DNA of 64,000 bases from Vampirovibrionales bacterium (GTDB taxonomy: Bacteria; Cyanobacteriota; Vampirovibrionia; Vampirovibrionales; Vampirovibrionaceae). Both the position numbers and the translations under genes were made by a program. Below, in pieces: positions 26,106 to 54,866 of this stretch (position 1 is its first letter; each line of letters starts with the position of its first letter). The stretch spans positions 310,001 to 374,000 of the forward strand of contig JAJCZA010000005.1 in the NCBI GenBank assembly GCA_029262635.1, given 5' to 3'. Under the pieces are notes generated by a model that was given only the letters and a program-made list of their open reading frames with translations, did not search any database and had not been told where the DNA came from.

Positions 26106-28147
26106 ATACTCCTCCCACCAGCACGGGTATAAACCCCGTCGTCAAGAGCTTTCAGGAAGCTGCCGATCAGGTCAAAGGATCACTGGATATTATTGATCTG
26201 GTTTCACGCTACGTGGTGCTTAAAAAGTCCGGACGAAACCACACCGGACTTTGCCCGTTTCATAAGGACCGAAACCCCTCATTCAGTGTTAGCCCTTCTA
26301 AAAGCCTTTACAAATGCTTCAGTTGCGGCGAAGGAGGCGACGCCCTAAGCTTCCTCATGAAGATTGAAAACAAAACCTACGGGCAGGTCATCCGGGATCT
26401 GGCCGAAGAGCAAAACATTCTTATTCAGGACGACGGACAAGACCGGGATGAAGTCGCTCGAAAACAGACACTGAGCCACCAACTAACCGAACTAAACACT
26501 TTGGCGCAAAGCTGGTACCAACACCAACTGAACGCACCTGAAGGCGAGCCTGTCCGCCAATACCTCACCCATCGAGATATTTCCAATGAAACCATCCAAC
26601 GTTTCGGATTAGGGCACGCCCTACCGGGTTGGGAGACCCTGACCCAACACCTGGTTACCACCGTTGATTTCGCGAAAGACAACCCGGATTTACTCATTAC
26701 TGCAGGTATCTCCAATGCCAGACAGGAAGGGAACGGTTATTATGACCGCTTCAGGAATCGTCTCACGATTCCTATCCATGATGAATCGGGTCGGGTCGTT
26801 GGCTTTGGCGGCCGTGCCCTGAGTAACGAAGACAAGCCTAAATACCTGAACACTCCAGAAACCACTCTGTATCAAAAAAGCAAATTACTTTACGGCCTGT
26901 TTCAAGCCAAAAAAGCCATTCATGACACCCAGTCCGCCATTGTTATGGAAGGCTATTTCGATGTAATCTCGGCCCATATGGGCGGGGTAACACAGGCGGT
27001 TGGCTCCTGCGGTACAGCCTTAACAGACCGCCACTTGAAATTACTCACCCGATTTGGTGCTGAGACGATTTATCTGGCATTCGATTCAGATGAAGCCGGG
27101 CTGAAAGCCGCTCTCAAAGCGATTTCACTCATTGAACCCTATCTCGATTCCACATCACTCAAAGTCAAAATCGTAACGGTCCCCGGCGATAAAGACCCGG
27201 ACGACTTTATTCGCCACCACGGCGGTGAAGCCTTTCAGAAATTGCTCACAACGGCTTTACCCCATCTAACGTTCAAATGCGAACAGGCCCTTCAGGGCTT
27301 AAACACGAAAGAAGCTGAAGGACGGGTCCAGGCCGCAACCAACCTGACCCCTATTCTGGCCGCAATTCAACAACCCGTTCTCCGCCGGGAATACCTCAAT
27401 CAATACGCCGATCGCATCGGGGTTCAGCCCAATGATTTAACACAGGAACTTCAACGATTTTTTCAGAAAACACAACCCCCTTCCGCTTCTATCTACCCCC
27501 TTTCCCGGCGAAGGAAACAAAACGATACAAAAAAAGTTGAATCCAATAAGGCAATTTCTGATCCCTCTCGGACTTTGAAGAGAAGAGCAGGGTTTTCCCT
27601 TGACTCAAAAATAAACTCTAAACTCTACAAGGCGGAGAAGGCCTTGCTTCAACTCCTCTTTTTAAACAAACAAACCTATGGTGCGATGGAGCCTATTGTG
27701 AAAAAACACCAATTCACCGATAATATCCACCAGTCACTTGTTGACTCTCTTCCGGAAACCCATTCTGATGAAGAGACCCTTAACGATGTGATTCACAAGT
27801 TGAGCGGCTTAACAGCCGATCAGCCCGAGCTCCAACATGCATTAACGGACCTGGTGTTCTCTGCTGAAACGTTCGCCGAATCCATCCAGATTGATGCCCT
27901 TCCACCCTCCGAAGTGGATGCCTTTATTCTGGAAGAAGCGAAAAATTATCAACAGACCATGAGAACCATCCAACTTCGTCAGCATCTGGCCCAACAGCGC
28001 CAACAAATTCAAGCGCTGGAACAAGCCAAAACAGAGGATTTCAATGACGAATCCTCTGATCAGGAACACGACCGGACTCTCTCTCAACTGGAACTTCAAT
28101 ATGAATTTCGGGAGAACCTGTCGAAAACCAGAAACGAGTTACTGTAA
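26102..28147 (+). CDS. dnaG: DNA primase
   Basis: The 681-residue protein has the N-terminal CHC2 zinc finger (C-P-F-H near 57 and C-F-S-C near 78), the primase core with E-G-Y-F-D in the Toprim domain (about 280) and the D-S-D metal pair near 330. A longer, charged C-terminal region (about 465-681) would bind DnaB helicase. It synthesises RNA primers on the lagging strand. It is translationally coupled to dgt and followed 21 bp later by rpoD, the core of the macromolecular synthesis operon. rpsU, its common third member, is not present here. Confidence 0.97.
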   Translation: MNTPPTSTGINPVVKSFQEAADQVKGSLDIIDLVSRYVVLKKSGRNHTGLCPFHKDRNPSFSVSPSKSLYKCFSCGEGGDALSFLMKIENKTYGQVIRDLAEEQNILIQDDGQDRDEVARKQTLSHQLTELNTLAQSWYQHQLNAPEGEPVRQYLTHRDISNETIQRFGLGHALPGWETLTQHLVTTVDFAKDNPDLLITAGISNARQEGNGYYDRFRNRLTIPIHDESGRVVGFGGRALSNEDKPKYLNTPETTLYQKSKLLYGLFQAKKAIHDTQSAIVMEGYFDVISAHMGGVTQAVGSCGTALTDRHLKLLTRFGAETIYLAFDSDEAGLKAALKAISLIEPYLDSTSLKVKIVTVPGDKDPDDFIRHHGGEAFQKLLTTALPHLTFKCEQALQGLNTKEAEGRVQAATNLTPILAAIQQPVLRREYLNQYADRIGVQPNDLTQELQRFFQKTQPPSASIYPLSRRRKQNDTKKVESNKAISDPSRTLKRRAGFSLDSKINSKLYKAEKALLQLLFLNKQTYGAMEPIVKKHQFTDNIHQSLVDSLPETHSDEETLNDVIHKLSGLTADQPELQHALTDLVFSAETFAESIQIDALPPSEVDAFILEEAKNYQQTMRTIQLRQHLAQQRQQIQALEQAKTEDFNDESSDQEHDRTLSQLELQYEFRENLSKTRNELL

Positions 28148-28168
28148 AGGAGACATAGGTAAACCATT

Positions 28169-29296
28169 ATGACGAAACCCAAAAAACGTCGTTCTTCCAA
28201 TAACGAAGATGCTTTGGTGGACATGATTGAAAAACAGGAAACCGGTTCCAGCAAACGAAGCGGCATCGATGAATTCCTCTCTGTTAGTGAAGGTCATTCC
28301 GACCACATTGGTGAACTCTTTGGTGGTAGCTCGGTTCAAGCCGATCACCTGGTCGATCAGAATGCACTGGGCCGCCAAGGGCAAACCGCAACCATGGCCC
28401 CCGTTATTCGAGAAGATAAAAAAGAGTCCGAGCCTAATTTTTCAGAAGCAGGAAGCAGTTCCATCGATGACCCCGTCCGGATGTACCTTCGGGAAATTGG
28501 TCGAATTAACTTACTCTCAGCTAAAGAAGAGATTGAGCTAGCTCGAACTATTGCCGCTGGCGGTGAAGAAGGTATGGATGCTAAACGAAGTTTGGTTCAA
28601 GCCAACCTTCGGCTGGTGGTTAGTATCGCTAAAAAATATGTTGGCCGTGGCATGCTCTTCCTCGATCTCATTCAAGAAGGGAATCTAGGTCTAATTCGAG
28701 CCGCCGAAAAATTTGATCACGAGCGAGGTTATAAATTTTCAACTTACGCGACATGGTGGATCCGTCAGGCTATTACCCGTGCCATTGCGGATCAGGCACG
28801 AACCATAAGAATCCCGGTTCACATGGTGGAAACCATTAATAAACTCAAAAAAATCACCCGTAAACTGGCTCAGGAACTCAGCCGAAAACCCACGGAAGAA
28901 GAGTTGGCCAAGGAAATGGGAATCACGGTTCCCAAGCTTCGGGATATTATCAAGGTCGCTCAGGAGCCTCTCTCACTGGAAACCCCCATTGGCAAGGAAG
29001 AGGATTCTCGCCTCGGTGATTTCATCGAAGATCGGGATGCGGAGGCCCCGGCACACACCGTTGCTCAGGAACTCCTGCGGGAAGATTTAACCGAAGTCCT
29101 TAGTAGCCTGTCTCCTCGTGAACGGGATGTTCTCCGACTTCGGTTTGGTCTGGATGATGGCCGTCAGCGAACATTGGAAGAAGTAGGCCAGCTCTTTGGA
29201 GTCACCCGTGAGCGAATTCGGCAGATCGAAGCCAAAGCATTACGTAAACTGCGTCACCCCAACCGCAGCCGTCGCTTAAAAGAATACATCGAGTAA
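28169..29296 (+). CDS. rpoD: Primary RNA polymerase sigma factor (RpoD/SigA)
   Basis: The 375-residue protein has a short, divergent N-terminus (about 1-100, largely lacking region 1.1), then region 1.2 with [11 protein letters not shown]. Region 2 has [12 protein letters not shown] and [16 protein letters not shown], region 3 I-P-V-H-M-V-E-T-I, and region 4.2 has the helix-turn-helix [14 protein letters not shown]. It directs housekeeping transcription. GGAGA lies 17 bp upstream of the ATG, a long spacing. Size and layout match SigA-type factors. Confidence 0.98.
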
Positions 29297-48242: not shown

Positions 48243-49409
48243 ATGGTCAGCCCCATGACATTAAAACCAGCGACTGGCTTGATACCCCAAATTACCGGCT
48301 CTGCCAGCAGAGCGCTCTATCGCTTGTTTGGAGCGCCGAATAAGGTCTTAAAATCTGGGCAGGAAATCCGACTGGACTTTCGTCAAACACCATTAGCGAT
48401 TCTTTCGGGTGGGGCTTTAATTTATGCACAAGGACAAGAAAACAAAAAAATGGGAGGCGACTCCCACCGCTGGTTAAAACTTCTGACAGAAGGTGGCGTT
48501 ATTTATGCGTTGATGACCACCACCGCCGGCATTCTGCCTTTACTCACTCTGGGAACCGCCGCTTACCGCTCAGGAAAAAAGGACAACCTGTTAGAAAAAA
48601 CACAGGAAGCCATTCAGGTTGCCAGCATGGTTTTTCTTGGCTATTTGGGTGCCATGACCGGGCTAAACTACTCGATGCATGCCATTGATAACGGGGCAAA
48701 GGAGTTGCTTCCCCACCTAAAGAAAGAAGTGCTCTGGAACGAGTTCAACCCGGAGAAAAACCCGGTACTAAACCAACTTCTCGCTTCCAACGACCTTGAA
48801 CGAAAAGCCATCGGTGAACGGCTAAAGTCTATTCATGTCTCCAAAGAAAAAGCCATTAAGGCCATCGAACAGCATCTGGTCTTCTTATCCGGGGGCCATT
48901 TAAAAGCAGGTAGCGAAATCAGCTATCGACTGGCACAAGAATACCGGCGCAAGACCGACACAACCCTCGGTCAATTGTTTGAAGACTTAACCCACCCCAG
49001 AGTAAAACAACGATTAAAGACTCAACTGGATCACTTGACCCGACGGCTCGCTGAAAACACGCCTTACATCGGGGATCAATTCCAACAAAAGATGTTGAGT
49101 GGGATCAAAAAATTCAGTATCGAGCTTGGAACCAGCCATTCAAGCCCTATTCGTGGACTCCGTTTAGCAAACCCTGTTTTTGGCGCCATGATTGGCGCAA
49201 CCCTATTGGGCCTGCCTCTGGCCAAATTTTTTAATAATTTACTCACCCAGAGTTTCCCCGCTTTAGGAAAAACCGATCTAAAAATACCGACTCAAACCCT
49301 CTGGCTTCCAGAAACGGGAAAACCGGCCTATAACCGAAGCCAAGAGTTCAACTACCTTCCAAACATCGATGCTTATACCCGTCCAAGCTTTAGCCCAAGG
49401 GGCTTCTAA
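48243..49409 (+). CDS. Membrane protein of unknown function
   Basis: Not recognised. The 388-residue product has hydrophobic segments at about 53-66, 80-108, 127-150 and 320-340, a soluble helical region rich in Lys/Glu (about 155-310), and a C-terminal soluble tail with aromatic and proline residues. It may start at the second in-frame Met (residue 5). AGGA lies upstream. It stands alone between a transglycosylase and a convergent epimerase. I found no motif to suggest a function; it may be specific to this lineage. Confidence 0.75.
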   Translation: MVSPMTLKPATGLIPQITGSASRALYRLFGAPNKVLKSGQEIRLDFRQTPLAILSGGALIYAQGQENKKMGGDSHRWLKLLTEGGVIYALMTTTAGILPLLTLGTAAYRSGKKDNLLEKTQEAIQVASMVFLGYLGAMTGLNYSMHAIDNGAKELLPHLKKEVLWNEFNPEKNPVLNQLLASNDLERKAIGERLKSIHVSKEKAIKAIEQHLVFLSGGHLKAGSEISYRLAQEYRRKTDTTLGQLFEDLTHPRVKQRLKTQLDHLTRRLAENTPYIGDQFQQKMLSGIKKFSIELGTSHSSPIRGLRLANPVFGAMIGATLLGLPLAKFFNNLLTQSFPALGKTDLKIPTQTLWLPETGKPAYNRSQEFNYLPNIDAYTRPSFSPRGF

Positions 49410-49423
49410 GCCTCTTTAACCCC

Positions 49424-50446
49424 TCAGCAAGCTAGCCCACAGGTCGGGATCCGCTTTTTATAAGTCATATACCAATCCACGAATTTCGGGATGCCCTCTT
49501 CTACTTTTGTCGAGGGGTGATAGTTTAAGACCGATCGAGCTCGGGTAATATCCGCATACGTAATGGGTACATCGCCCGGCTGAAGAGGCTGACGGTTAAT
49601 AATGGCTTTCTTGCCCACAGCGTTTTCAATCAACTCAATCAAACGAGCTAGCGTGGTCGTTTGGGACTCGCCCAGATTGACCACTTGAAACGGGGTCGCA
49701 TCATAAGCGATGGCCGCCATCACACCTTGCATAATATCGTCAATATACGTGTAATCTCGCTCGGTTGTGCCATCGCCAAACACGGGAATGGGTTCGCCCT
49801 CGTCAATCATGCGGGTAAACTTATGAATGGCCAAATCCGGGCGCTGCCCAGGACCATACACGGTGAAAAACCGAAGACAAACCACTTGCAGGCCATACAA
49901 ATGACTATACGTATGAAGCAGATTCTCACCCATCACCTTGGTTGAAGCATACGGTGAAATGGGTTTGGAAATATCCTGATCTTCTTTGAACGGCACCTGA
50001 TCCGGGCTAGAACCATAAACCGAGCTGGACGAGGCAAAGACGAACTTCTGAATGCCGTGTTCCCGAGCCTGCTCCATTAAATTCAGCGTCCCGGTCACGT
50101 TGGTTTCCAAATACAGACGCGGTTCCATTAGCGAAGGACGTACGCCCGCTCGAGCCGCTAAATGAATAATCCCACCGGCTTTCAGTGCTTCGCCATGGCG
50201 AGAAAACACCTCGGCCAGCGCTTGTTGATCCCGAATATCCACCCGATACAGCGAAAAGTTCGGATGCGTTTCAAACGCCTGAATGTTTTGTTCTTTAATG
50301 GCCGGATCATAAAAGTCATTAAACTCATCCACTGCCACCACCGAAGCCCCTCGATCCAGCAAATGCCGCACCGTGTGCGACCCAATAAACCCGGCACCAC
50401 CGGTGACCAGATACGTTTGACCCGAAAAAGAAGAATTATCGACCAT
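49424..50446 (-). CDS. NAD-dependent nucleotide-sugar epimerase (GalE/UDP-glucuronate 4-epimerase like)
   Basis: The start at 50446 (ATG, GGAG about 10 nt upstream) is preferred over an in-frame TTG six codons earlier. The 340-residue SDR has [10 protein letters not shown] near 17, S-S-S-S-V-Y-G near 130 and the catalytic Y-A-S-T-K near 156. The sequence [16 protein letters not shown] is close to UDP-glucuronate 4-epimerases. It should interconvert UDP-sugars for envelope polysaccharide; exact substrate is inferred. Confidence 0.9.
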
Positions 50447-50571
50447 GAAAACCAGTCTCCGCAATCAACATCCGTTACACTACAGGGTATTTTACCTCAA
50501 ACCCATGCGGAAAGAGAGTCCTCTTAAGTTCTTTACCTAAGGTTACAAGAATTAACCTAGAAACAATCTCA

Positions 50572-50600
50572 TTGTTTGAAGGGCGTTTTTTTATTACACT
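50572..50600 (+). promoter_or_regulatory. Promoter candidate for the tandem small-gene array
   Basis: TTGTTT (50572-50577), 17-bp spacer, TACACT (50595-50600). The -35 is the right arm of a 7-bp hairpin AAACAAT/ATTGTTT (50561-50567 and 50571-50577). It lies 47 bp before the first small gene. Confidence 0.45.
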
Positions 50601-50647
50601 CCTAATACAGTTGCCTTAGTGTTACTCAATCCATAGGAGTCCTCCCC

Positions 50648-51049
50648 ATGCACATTCCCCAATTTGCCGGAAGCTTTGATATCCACTTTACCCCCACAAG
50701 CAAAAACGTAGGAAATCCAGAGGCTAAAAAAGCGCTTCACACCTTTTATGAAATCTCCGAAGATCCCCATAAAGAAATCATGGCCCCTATCAATCTCGTT
50801 TCATGGGAGGCTAAAGTAAACCTTCAAAAAAAAGAGGTAACACTTCCTAACCACATTCAAATCAACTGCTCTCCAGAGTTTGATGATTCCTTCAAAAAAA
50901 CCATTAAAGGCATCCAAACACTCCAACCTAAAGCCTTTAAGGGTGTCTCATTTACTCCTGACAATGTGCCTCAAAAATTAATTCCAAGTAACATACGCAC
51001 CTCCTCATCACGCATTCGTCAGACACCCCCAACAAGCGGAAGAGATTAA
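50648..51049 (+). CDS. Small unknown protein, tandem paralogue 1 of 3
   Basis: The 133-residue product begins M-H-I-P-Q-F-A-G-S-F-D and has a second conserved block L-P-N-H-I-Q-I-N-C near 80. Both blocks recur in the two following genes, so the three are paralogues. No signal peptide or TM segment; probably a small cytoplasmic or structural protein with an N-terminal strand. The C-terminus is Ser/Thr/Pro-rich and unique to this copy. AGGAG precedes the ATG, followed by a pyrimidine-rich CCTCCCC. No known family is recognised. Confidence 0.8.
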   Translation: MHIPQFAGSFDIHFTPTSKNVGNPEAKKALHTFYEISEDPHKEIMAPINLVSWEAKVNLQKKEVTLPNHIQINCSPEFDDSFKKTIKGIQTLQPKAFKGVSFTPDNVPQKLIPSNIRTSSSRIRQTPPTSGRD

Positions 51050-51082
51050 CTGCACCTTCTCCCTTTGGCCTTTAAAGGATCG
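51046..51082 (-). repeat. Decayed copy 1 of the dapL-like 3' end
   Basis: Read on the minus strand, the 37 bp after (and including) the stop of the first small gene encode V-D-P-L-K-A-K-G-R-R-C-S-stop, against I-D-R-L-K-A-K-G-I-R-Y-S-stop at the true dapL end (51850-51886). By eye 26 of 37 bases match without gaps. Confidence 0.75.
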
Positions 51083-51129
51083 ACTCTCTTGAGACTTTTC
51101 ACCTTACTAATGAAAAGGAGCGCCTCCCC

Positions 51130-51462
51130 ATGCACATTCCAAAATTTTCAGGCACTTTTACAGTGACCCTCAAGCCTCAAGACCCAAAAGCAAAGAGAAA
51201 AGGAGACCCAAAGGCACAAGTCATCGACTATTTGAACAATCACATCGATGATTATTCTATCTTTATTCCAAAAAACAGATCTCACTCTAGGGATATTTTA
51301 CCCAACCAGTTTATGATTCTATGCTCAGATGGTATGGATACCCAAGCAGTCCTTGGACTAGAGAGCATTAAAGCCCTCCACCCTAATCTGTTTGAATCTG
51401 TTATGTACCAATCTAATAAAGACCGAGGCCCGCTTTCACTGTTTTCTTCAAAAGAAAATTAA
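51130..51462 (+). CDS. Small unknown protein, tandem paralogue 2 of 3
   Basis: The 110-residue product begins M-H-I-P-K-F-S-G-T-F-T and has L-P-N-Q-F-M-I-L-C in the second conserved block. It shares start, length and spacing with the flanking genes but has diverged in the middle, with many Lys and Asp residues. AAAAGGAG and a CCTCCCC tract precede the ATG. No signal sequence or TM segment. Function unknown; the array suggests dosage or variant specificity. Confidence 0.8.
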   Translation: MHIPKFSGTFTVTLKPQDPKAKRKGDPKAQVIDYLNNHIDDYSIFIPKNRSHSRDILPNQFMILCSDGMDTQAVLGLESIKALHPNLFESVMYQSNKDRGPLSLFSSKEN

Positions 51463-51488
51463 CTGTAACGAACCCCTTTGGCTTAAAA
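51459..51488 (-). repeat. Decayed copy 2 of the dapL-like 3' end
   Basis: On the minus strand these 30 bp read A-K-G-V-R-Y-S-stop in the dapL frame (A-K-G-I-R-Y-S-stop in the intact gene), with an internal stop just upstream. 25 of 30 bases match the true end, several changes being synonymous. Confidence 0.78.
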
Positions 51489-51520
51489 CTTTTTTAACTC
51501 AACAAATAGGAGATCTTCCC

Positions 51521-51853
51521 ATGAACATCCCCAAATTCGCCGGAACCTTTGATCTTCGGTTTAACCCAAACCCCATTTTATCTTCAGATGCTAAAAATGA
51601 GGTAGCTCAGCTCTATGAAGAGCTTTCAGAACCCAAAAATTTATTAATTTCAGTAAAAGGCGTGAATTTAACCCAAGGCATCCGCCAATTTCCTGATCAC
51701 ATTCAAATCCAATGTCATTCTAGAGATGATGAGAAGGTAAAAACGAAATTACTAGACCTTAGTGGAGACCTTTTTAGTCTTATTCGTGCAATTATGTCTA
51801 TTGATTACCAATCAAGCAGTGGGAAGCTACCCCTTAACGATCTCATGGGTTAA
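51521..51853 (+). CDS. Small unknown protein, tandem paralogue 3 of 3
   Basis: The start at 51521 is fixed by ATAGGAG and by alignment with the other two; the product (110 residues) begins M-N-I-P-K-F-A-G-T-F-D, with F-P-D-H-I-Q-I-Q-C as the second block near 68. A helical middle (E-V-A-Q-L-Y-E-E-L) matches that of copy 1. Its stop overlaps the convergent dapL-like stop by 4 bp (TTAA). No signal peptide. Function unknown. Confidence 0.82.
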   Translation: MNIPKFAGTFDLRFNPNPILSSDAKNEVAQLYEELSEPKNLLISVKGVNLTQGIRQFPDHIQIQCHSRDDEKVKTKLLDLSGDLFSLIRAIMSIDYQSSSGKLPLNDLMG

Positions 51854-53064
51854 CTATAGCGAATCCCTTTGGCTTTAAGGCGATCGATGGCTTGTTGGAG
51901 GAGTTCTTTGGATGAAACCAAAGACACTCGGAAATAAGCGTCACCGGCATCGCCAAAAGCAATCCCCGGTGTAATCACCACATCGGTGGTATCCATCAGG
52001 TGACGACACCAGCTTTTGGAGTCATCAAACCCGCTAGGCACCGGCAACCAAACGTAAAGAGTGGAACGAGGGGGCTCTATCGTCCAGCCCATTTCCTGAA
52101 AACCTTTCACCACCACATCTCGGCGTTCTTGATAGGTTTGGATAATCCCAGGCAAAAATTCTTCGGCTCGATCCAGCGCGCAAATGCCCCCGTCCTGAAT
52201 CGCCGAGGCAATACCATAGTCGCAGTTGGTTTTCACGTTAAATAACGTTTTAATCACGCCTGGATTCCCGCACGCCCAGCCCATACGCCAACCGGCCATG
52301 TTGAAGCTCTTGGAAAACGAGTGGTATTCAATGGCCACAGATTTCGCATCCGGTACATTAAAAATGCTCGGCGGACGATAGCCATCGTAACAGATCTCAC
52401 CGTAGGCCAGATCGCTAATCAGCACAATGCCGTGCTTTTTACAGTACGCCACCAGTTTTTCCAGATAACTCAACGGAGCCGTGGCCGCCGAAGGATTATT
52501 GGGGTAATTCATAAACATAAGCTTGGCTTTTTGAGCCACTTCCTCTGGAATGGTCTCCACATCGGGTAAATAATGATTTTCTTCCGTCATGGCACAATAA
52601 TGAACTTTCCCACCGGCCAAATACGTGGCTCGGGCATGGACCGGGTAATACGGCGCAAAAACAATGCTGTAATCCCCTTCACCAATATAGGCAAAGGTTA
52701 GCTTGGCCAATCCTTCTTTCGAGCCAATTAGGGGCTGTACTTCGGTTTCTGGGTCGATCTCCACATGATAACGGCGGCTCATAAACCGAGAGACCGCTTC
52801 TCGAAATTCAGGCTTACCGTTGAATTGAGGATATCGGTGATTGGCAGGATCCATGACCCCTTCTTGAATGGCTCTTAAAATAGGCTCCGGTGTGGGTAAG
52901 TCCGGATTCCCCATGCCCAGATCAATCAAATCAGCTCCACGGGCTCGGGCTTCCGCCTTTAGCACATCCAATTGGGCAAACACATAAGGAGGCAAGTCGG
53001 TCAATCGTTTTGACGGCTCTGCCGGGCTCGTATAAACCGGAGTCAAAACAGAATCGTGTGTCAT
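51850..53064 (-). CDS. Class I/II aminotransferase (LL-diaminopimelate aminotransferase-like)
   Basis: The 404-residue PLP enzyme has L-G-M-G-N-P-D-L-P-T-P near 50, N-Y-P-N-N-P-S near 188, the Schiff-base lysine in S-F-S-K-S-F-N-M-A-G-W-R near 252, and a C-terminal F-R-V-S-L. It fits the group annotated as LL-DAP aminotransferase or aspartate/alanine aminotransferase in cyanobacteria; the substrate is inferred. GAGAGG lies upstream of the ATG. Its 3' end has been copied into the spacers of the adjacent small-gene array. Confidence 0.9.
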   Translation of the reverse strand: MTHDSVLTPVYTSPAEPSKRLTDLPPYVFAQLDVLKAEARARGADLIDLGMGNPDLPTPEPILRAIQEGVMDPANHRYPQFNGKPEFREAVSRFMSRRYHVEIDPETEVQPLIGSKEGLAKLTFAYIGEGDYSIVFAPYYPVHARATYLAGGKVHYCAMTEENHYLPDVETIPEEVAQKAKLMFMNYPNNPSAATAPLSYLEKLVAYCKKHGIVLISDLAYGEICYDGYRPPSIFNVPDAKSVAIEYHSFSKSFNMAGWRMGWACGNPGVIKTLFNVKTNCDYGIASAIQDGGICALDRAEEFLPGIIQTYQERRDVVVKGFQEMGWTIEPPRSTLYVWLPVPSGFDDSKSWCRHLMDTTDVVITPGIAFGDAGDAYFRVSLVSSKELLQQAIDRLKAKGIRYS

Positions 53065-54227: not shown

Positions 54228-54866
54228 ATGGGATCAGTCGCATACAGCGGACAGCCATTACCTTGGTATCATCACCAGCCAACTTCACTTGAGCGGGAGA
54301 TGAAAGAGCGTATAAAAACCTACGATTTAGACGGGCCCGTTGGACGTTCTTCTAGTGATTTCATGCCTTTTTCCTACGATGATTCGCCGGAAAGCTCTTT
54401 AAAGAAAGGGGTTAATGCGGCAGGATTAACACTGGGCGGGGTTTTAGCGGCAAACCAACTAAAACATGTCCCTCCCAGCCTTATAACAAATTCTGCTGGT
54501 GTTTCAACACCGACAAGTGGCAACCTTGGTTACCGTGCAACCGAATGGGCTAAAAAAGGTAATCATGTTAAAACCCAACGGTTTTTTCAATCCGCTGGCA
54601 CCGCATCCGAAGGCTTTCTCAGTCGGATCACTCAATTCGGAAATTGGTTTGAAAAGACATCTAAAGCGGCTGCAACATCCGTTGGTAAAACAGCATCCGG
54701 TCAATGGATCAAAAATATCGCTTCAAAGCCAGCCATTAAAAATGTTGGTTCTAAACTACTCAAGGTTGGCGGACGTGCTTTGGCATTTGTCGGCGCCGCC
54801 GGCCCAGTGGGTTGGGCCATTGGTGGAGTCGCACTGGCAACCACCCTAGCCTTTATGATCCTGTAA
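54228..54866 (+). CDS. Unknown protein with C-terminal glycine-rich membrane segment
   Basis: Not recognised. The 212-residue product has a polar, acidic N-terminus (about 1-65), a short hydrophobic patch (about 68-77), a Thr/Ser/Lys-rich amphipathic middle, and a C-terminal Gly/Ala-rich hydrophobic stretch (about 182-212) ending at the last residue. This would insert as a tail anchor or glycine-zipper helical hairpin. Glycine-zipper tails occur in secreted bacteriocin-like and effector-like proteins as well as in envelope proteins, but no leader or maturation genes are present. GGGGAG lies 12 bases upstream. Function unknown. Confidence 0.7.
   Translation: MGSVAYSGQPLPWYHHQPTSLEREMKERIKTYDLDGPVGRSSSDFMPFSYDDSPESSLKKGVNAAGLTLGGVLAANQLKHVPPSLITNSAGVSTPTSGNLGYRATEWAKKGNHVKTQRFFQSAGTASEGFLSRITQFGNWFEKTSKAAATSVGKTASGQWIKNIASKPAIKNVGSKLLKVGGRALAFVGAAGPVGWAIGGVALATTLAFMIL

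Follow-up and report, generated by a model that had tools for sequence, protein, structure and literature searches.

The window analysed here, the whole stretch of 64,000 nucleotides (64 kb), carries on the minus strand an LL-diaminopimelate-aminotransferase-like gene and an NAD-dependent epimerase gene, separated by a gap of 1.4 kb that is filled by three small genes on the opposite strand (Table 1). The GC content of the inserted stretch is 0.403, compared with 0.483 in the window as a whole and about 0.50 in the neighbours, and the small-gene array showed the lowest GC among the 1.4-kb stretches sampled in the window. The aminotransferase scored 503.8 bits against NF006756 (cut-off 507) and 482.9 against TIGR03540 (cut-off 593); as it lies below both NCBIfam curated cut-offs, it was named DapL-like. 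A second aminotransferase paralog, 44% identical to the gene of the window, is found in the same genome (C2:206989-208152). Two other open frames were observed in the window, one of 388 aa adjoining the epimerase gene (48243-49409, no significant Pfam hit) and one of 212 aa flanked by conserved genes and running on the opposite strand (54228-54866, no Pfam hit). Six relatives, compared over their syntenic stretches, showed no match to either.

Table 1. Genes, remnants and inserted stretch at the aminotransferase-epimerase locus (window positions)
Feature	Position	Strand	Basis
NAD-dependent epimerase gene (probable start ATG at 50446)	49424..50464	-	GDP_Man_Dehyd E 1.1e-61, Epimerase E 1.8e-59; synteny
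Whole inserted stretch	50465..51849	.	Between aminotransferase and epimerase genes; GC and synteny with relatives
Possible, unproven fourth remnant upstream of gene 1	50552..50588	-	p 0.05-0.06; overlaps hairpin with T-run
Small orphan gene 1, 133 aa, MHIPQFAGSFDIHF...	50648..51049	+	ORF; paralogy by shuffle test; ribosome site AGGAG
Remnant 1 of aminotransferase 3' end	51046..51082	-	26/37 ungapped; homology to ~51083 with gaps
Small orphan gene 2, 110 aa, MHIPKFSGTF...	51130..51462	+	ORF; paralogy by shuffle test
Remnant 2 of aminotransferase 3' end	51459..51488	-	25/30 ungapped; 26/37 over 51459-51495
Small orphan gene 3, 110 aa, MNIPKFAGTFDLRF...	51521..51853	+	ORF; paralogy by shuffle test
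Intact aminotransferase 3' end, source of remnants	51850..51886	-	C-terminus RLKxKGIRY conserved in closest relatives
LL-diaminopimelate-aminotransferase-like gene, 404 aa	51850..53064	-	Aminotran_1_2 E 2.4e-60

All three small genes lie on the plus strand and have an AGGAG ribosome site before them. The listed open reading frame of gene 3 opens upstream, at TTG 51392, and a ribosome site precedes the ATG at 51521; the stop of this gene overlaps that of the aminotransferase gene in TTAA. The three encoded proteins are paralogous according to the shuffle test (z of 12, 18 and 7), with amino-acid identities of about 30% and a common N-terminal motif, M-x-I-P-x-F-x-G-x-F. Beyond the first 15 residues, paralogy was significant for gene 1 with gene 2 and for gene 1 with gene 3, and genes 1 and 3 are mutually closer than either is to the middle gene 2. 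Several silent differences separate the genes in the motif region, and such differences within a shared N-terminus suggest selection on the protein.

Outside the array, the genome yielded no convincing relative of the small genes, and neither did the family or the 382 class genomes, the two class matches below 0.01 to the small-gene profile covering only its middle. Searches of Pfam, PHROGs and NCBIfam gave nothing above cut-off, and no relative was recovered from phages, plasmids, viral contigs or solved structures. The structure predicted from the three sequences was poor (pLDDT 45). Judged by these comparisons, the three small genes are paralogous orphans. The N-terminal motif was also considered as a genome-wide signal and discarded: the pattern M-x-I-x-x-F-x-G occurs 22 times versus 8 for a reversed-pattern control, and only the three array genes are alike. 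In front of each small gene (50630-51520), AGGAG is followed by a few bases, a pyrimidine run and the ATG (AGGAGTCCTCCCC, AGGAGCGCCTCCCC and AGGAGATCTTCCC). In genes 1 and 2 the pyrimidine run includes CCTCC, partly complementary to the ribosome site, and pairing between the two could form a small hairpin masking that site.

The 3' end of the aminotransferase gene is repeated after each of the first two small genes. Read on the minus strand, remnant 1 ends LKAKGRRCS-stop and remnant 2 ends AKGVRYS-stop, the true gene end being LKAKGIRYS-stop. An earlier note made from the sequence had described these copies; on rechecking the minus-strand reading, its coordinates and translations of both remnants and of the gene end were correct, and its by-eye counts of matching bases were reproduced, the second rising to 26 over the full 37 bases. 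The overlapping TTAA that it reported as kept is indeed the point at which each copy begins, both remnants starting exactly at a small-gene stop as in the true convergent overlap. All copies contain the block TTAACT...CCCTTTGGC, and a repeat search returned a three-copy family covering the two remnants and the true gene end.

When both strands of the 64 kb were scanned without gaps (~128,000 positions), the two remnants were the best matches, the next best being 22/37 on the plus strand and 23/37 on the minus strand. Local alignment against dinucleotide-preserving shuffles yielded p = 0.001 for spacer 1 and p < 0.0005 for spacer 2, values beyond chance expectation. As a background for the scores, 464 kb of this contig (including one 400-kb sample) with 423 predicted genes was used, the 3' end of each gene being matched within 2.5 kb downstream. 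Two other genes scored at least as high as the remnants, one through an ordinary tandem pair of paralogous coding regions (29/37) and one at 26/37 with no evident homology. No other copy of a small gene or of the aminotransferase tail was found elsewhere in the genome, and a scan of the genome contigs returned distant aminotransferases only, mostly cyanobacterial. Both spacers have the same layout, namely tail, leader with ribosome site, and gene. At the tail/leader junction, homology stops near base 37 in spacer 1 and at base 28-30 in spacer 2; a single junction shared by both spacers, altered by one deletion, may account for this. No promoters were found in the spacers.

A further stretch near 50552, upstream of gene 1, matches the tail at 19/33 positions when anchored and 21/37 when unanchored, values that are not significant (p 0.05-0.06), and its agreement with remnant 1 (11/33) is no better than chance. 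The region 50540-50600 holds a palindrome, AAACAATCTCATTGTTT, followed by GAAGGGCG and T7, an arrangement that resembles either an operator or, in the direction of gene 1, a terminator or attenuator.

In relatives from the same family and order, the epimerase gene comes directly after the aminotransferase gene, and the aspartyl-protease gene upstream is likewise conserved. In the closest relatives, the aminotransferase stop and the epimerase start overlap in ATGA and the epimerase NAD-binding motif lies 25-26 bases past the aminotransferase stop; in two other relatives this distance is 93-96 bases. The array is absent from 9/9 other genomes of the family and from the rest of the 382 class genomes searched. 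Arrays of a different length, for which the earlier note had suggested looking in relatives, were not encountered either: the family members have zero copies, and no one- or two-copy intermediate occurs among the genomes searched, which include no second genome of the same genus. Because the junction is closed in relatives and its two genes stand 1.4 kb apart in the window, the array is, from this synteny, a lineage-specific insertion into the ancestral aminotransferase-epimerase junction.

The last codons carry information on the order of events. The aminotransferase of the closest relatives ends R-Y-(E/D/Q)-S-TGA, with the epimerase ATG overlapping. The gene of the window ends R-Y-S-TAA, and in both remnants AGT-TAA immediately follows the codon that aligns with Tyr. 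Since this derived end occurs in all copies, the junction would be older than the copying; the small-gene/aminotransferase junction was probably formed once and then duplicated with the gene. The Tyr codon itself is TAC in remnant 2 and TAT in the gene of the window; most relatives with Tyr at this position have TAC, and its presence in remnant 2 is expected of a fossil retaining the older state.

The repeats, the paralogy, the insertion seen against relatives and the common junction are direct observations. Their best explanation, to which we give a probability of about 0.74, is a tandem duplication, at the ancestral junction, of a small gene of an orphan family together with the aminotransferase tail. 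If the small gene was copied along with the tail of the gene facing it, the three genes are expected to be paralogs; a unit repeated head to tail gives the tail-then-gene order of both spacers; and tandem duplication in this lineage accounts for an ORF/tail junction that is the same in all three units and for the lack of the array in any relative searched. The unit proposed in the earlier note, a small gene plus the 3' tail of the convergent neighbour, is supported by these same observations.

We infer the following order of events. In a lineage in which the aminotransferase gene stood directly before the epimerase gene, an AT-rich small gene of unknown origin would have entered on the opposite strand, exactly at the aminotransferase stop, its arrival leaving the aminotransferase with AGT TAA as its last codons today. 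Next, some 30 bases of leader, the small gene and a piece of the aminotransferase 3' end at least about 37 bases long would have been duplicated in tandem, as one unit, to give three copies. The 3' end would have stayed coding only in the copy next to the aminotransferase body, the two internal tail copies becoming non-coding and drifting, and the small genes would have diverged to their present identity with the N-terminal motif kept.

Some observations count against tandem duplication. The closeness of genes 1 and 3 is not predicted by simple stepwise tandem duplication unless gene 2 evolved faster, and the lack of a one- or two-copy intermediate in the genomes searched is also unfavourable. 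Another tandem pair of this genome (C5 ~28000-28747, minus strand) consists of paralogs of ~115 aa with 86/115 identical residues. It counts in favour of the reading in showing that ordinary tandem duplication does occur here. Despite these much more similar proteins, its downstream spacers show no similarity (8/37), which counts against the reading, though the boundary of that duplication may have fallen elsewhere.

The earlier note had raised another origin, in which one family of small elements inserted three times at the aminotransferase stop and pushed the old end outward, each event carrying or regenerating the last 30-40 bases of the gene. We consider this unlikely. Such insertions would agree with the opening of a junction that is closed in relatives, with the AT-richness of the array and its conserved ends and divergent interior, and with the weak remnant-like stretch at the outer flank of gene 1, the position that the model requires; however, that outer stretch is not significant and overlaps a hairpin. 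The genes between the remnants, which unrelated cargo would have left without similarity, are homologous by the shuffle test, no recombinase gene lies within the array, where only the three small genes are present, and neither gene nor tail has other copies in the genome. Integron attC sites were rejected, there being no attC core pair (RYYYAAC with GTTRRRY) in the spacers: the GTTRRRY core occurs in no spacer, and one isolated RYYYAAC lies at 51497. A minimal cassette-like element of ~400 bases, consisting of an orphan gene with conserved ends and without a recombinase of its own, inserting repeatedly and precisely at one chromosomal stop and restoring the host gene end each time, is a distinctly improbable variant.

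A different question is whether the remnants are fossils at all. Duplication may have made the repeated 30-37 bases and selection may keep them because they act on the side of the small genes, for instance as the 3' end of an RNA, as a terminator, or as part of a transcript complementary to the end of the aminotransferase mRNA. The two non-coding copies are identical at 18/33 positions, and each matches the coding copy at 22/33; third codon positions over the full gene alignments are only 28-38% identical, and the remnants are significantly more alike than these (Fisher p 0.014 to 0.0002). Remnants closer to one another than gene interiors are, together with the block present in all copies, speak for retention, and such preservation is not predicted for neutral fossils of the same age unless the interiors are misaligned, a point against drift. 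The gene interiors do contain numerous indels, and their alignment may be wrong. In the securely aligned codons 2-11, 5, 8 and 3 of 10 third positions agree, an identity of the same order as that of the non-coding pair, and in comparisons with the living aminotransferase gene the divergence is slowed by coding constraint. For these reasons we favour drift of the spacers and treat retention as the competing reading. An argument from saturated synonymous sites to selection on the remnants was likewise weakened once the comparison was restricted to the securely aligned N-terminal codons. Against a retained function, neither strand folds with unusual stability (z between 0 and +1.2), no terminator was detected in the spacers, no gathering-level Rfam match was obtained, and the third-position divergence of reliably aligned codons resembles that of the remnants. 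Retention is thus improbable, and the word "decayed" used in the earlier note suits the non-coding pair, with the caution that the tails are mutually closer than most of the gene interior.

Finally, chance similarity to the gene end can practically be dismissed: a single 26/37 match could arise once by chance, as the one unrelated gene among 423 illustrates, but not plausibly two independent matches, each anchored exactly at a small-gene stop and together the best two of ~128,000 positions.

Under the tandem-duplication reading, the array is a legible record of the origin of a lineage-specific orphan family, comprising entry between two adjacent genes, the sharing of a stop, and multiplication together with a fossil of the neighbour. 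Such fossils mark the boundary and the direction of old duplications even though the genes are now only about 30% identical.

Our searches for papers returned nothing specific on such an array. It resembles an integron gene-cassette array in its small genes of one orientation with short related sequences between them, and differs by having no attC core pair, no integrase, homologous cargo, and spacers that come from the end of a chromosomal gene. Integrative elements at gene 3' ends likewise repeat a gene end across inserted DNA, whereas here there is no recombinase, the unit is ~400 bases long and no outer att-like copy is significant. Tandem gene duplication with a breakpoint inside a neighbouring gene is a general mechanism, and the array shares with it homologous units in direct orientation, the same truncated piece of the neighbour in the units, and a neighbour left intact at one end. 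Unlike in the usual case, the captured piece is only ~37 bases long and is the end of a convergent gene with overlapping stops. On present evidence no new mechanism is revealed: the kind of event is known, and the instance is new.
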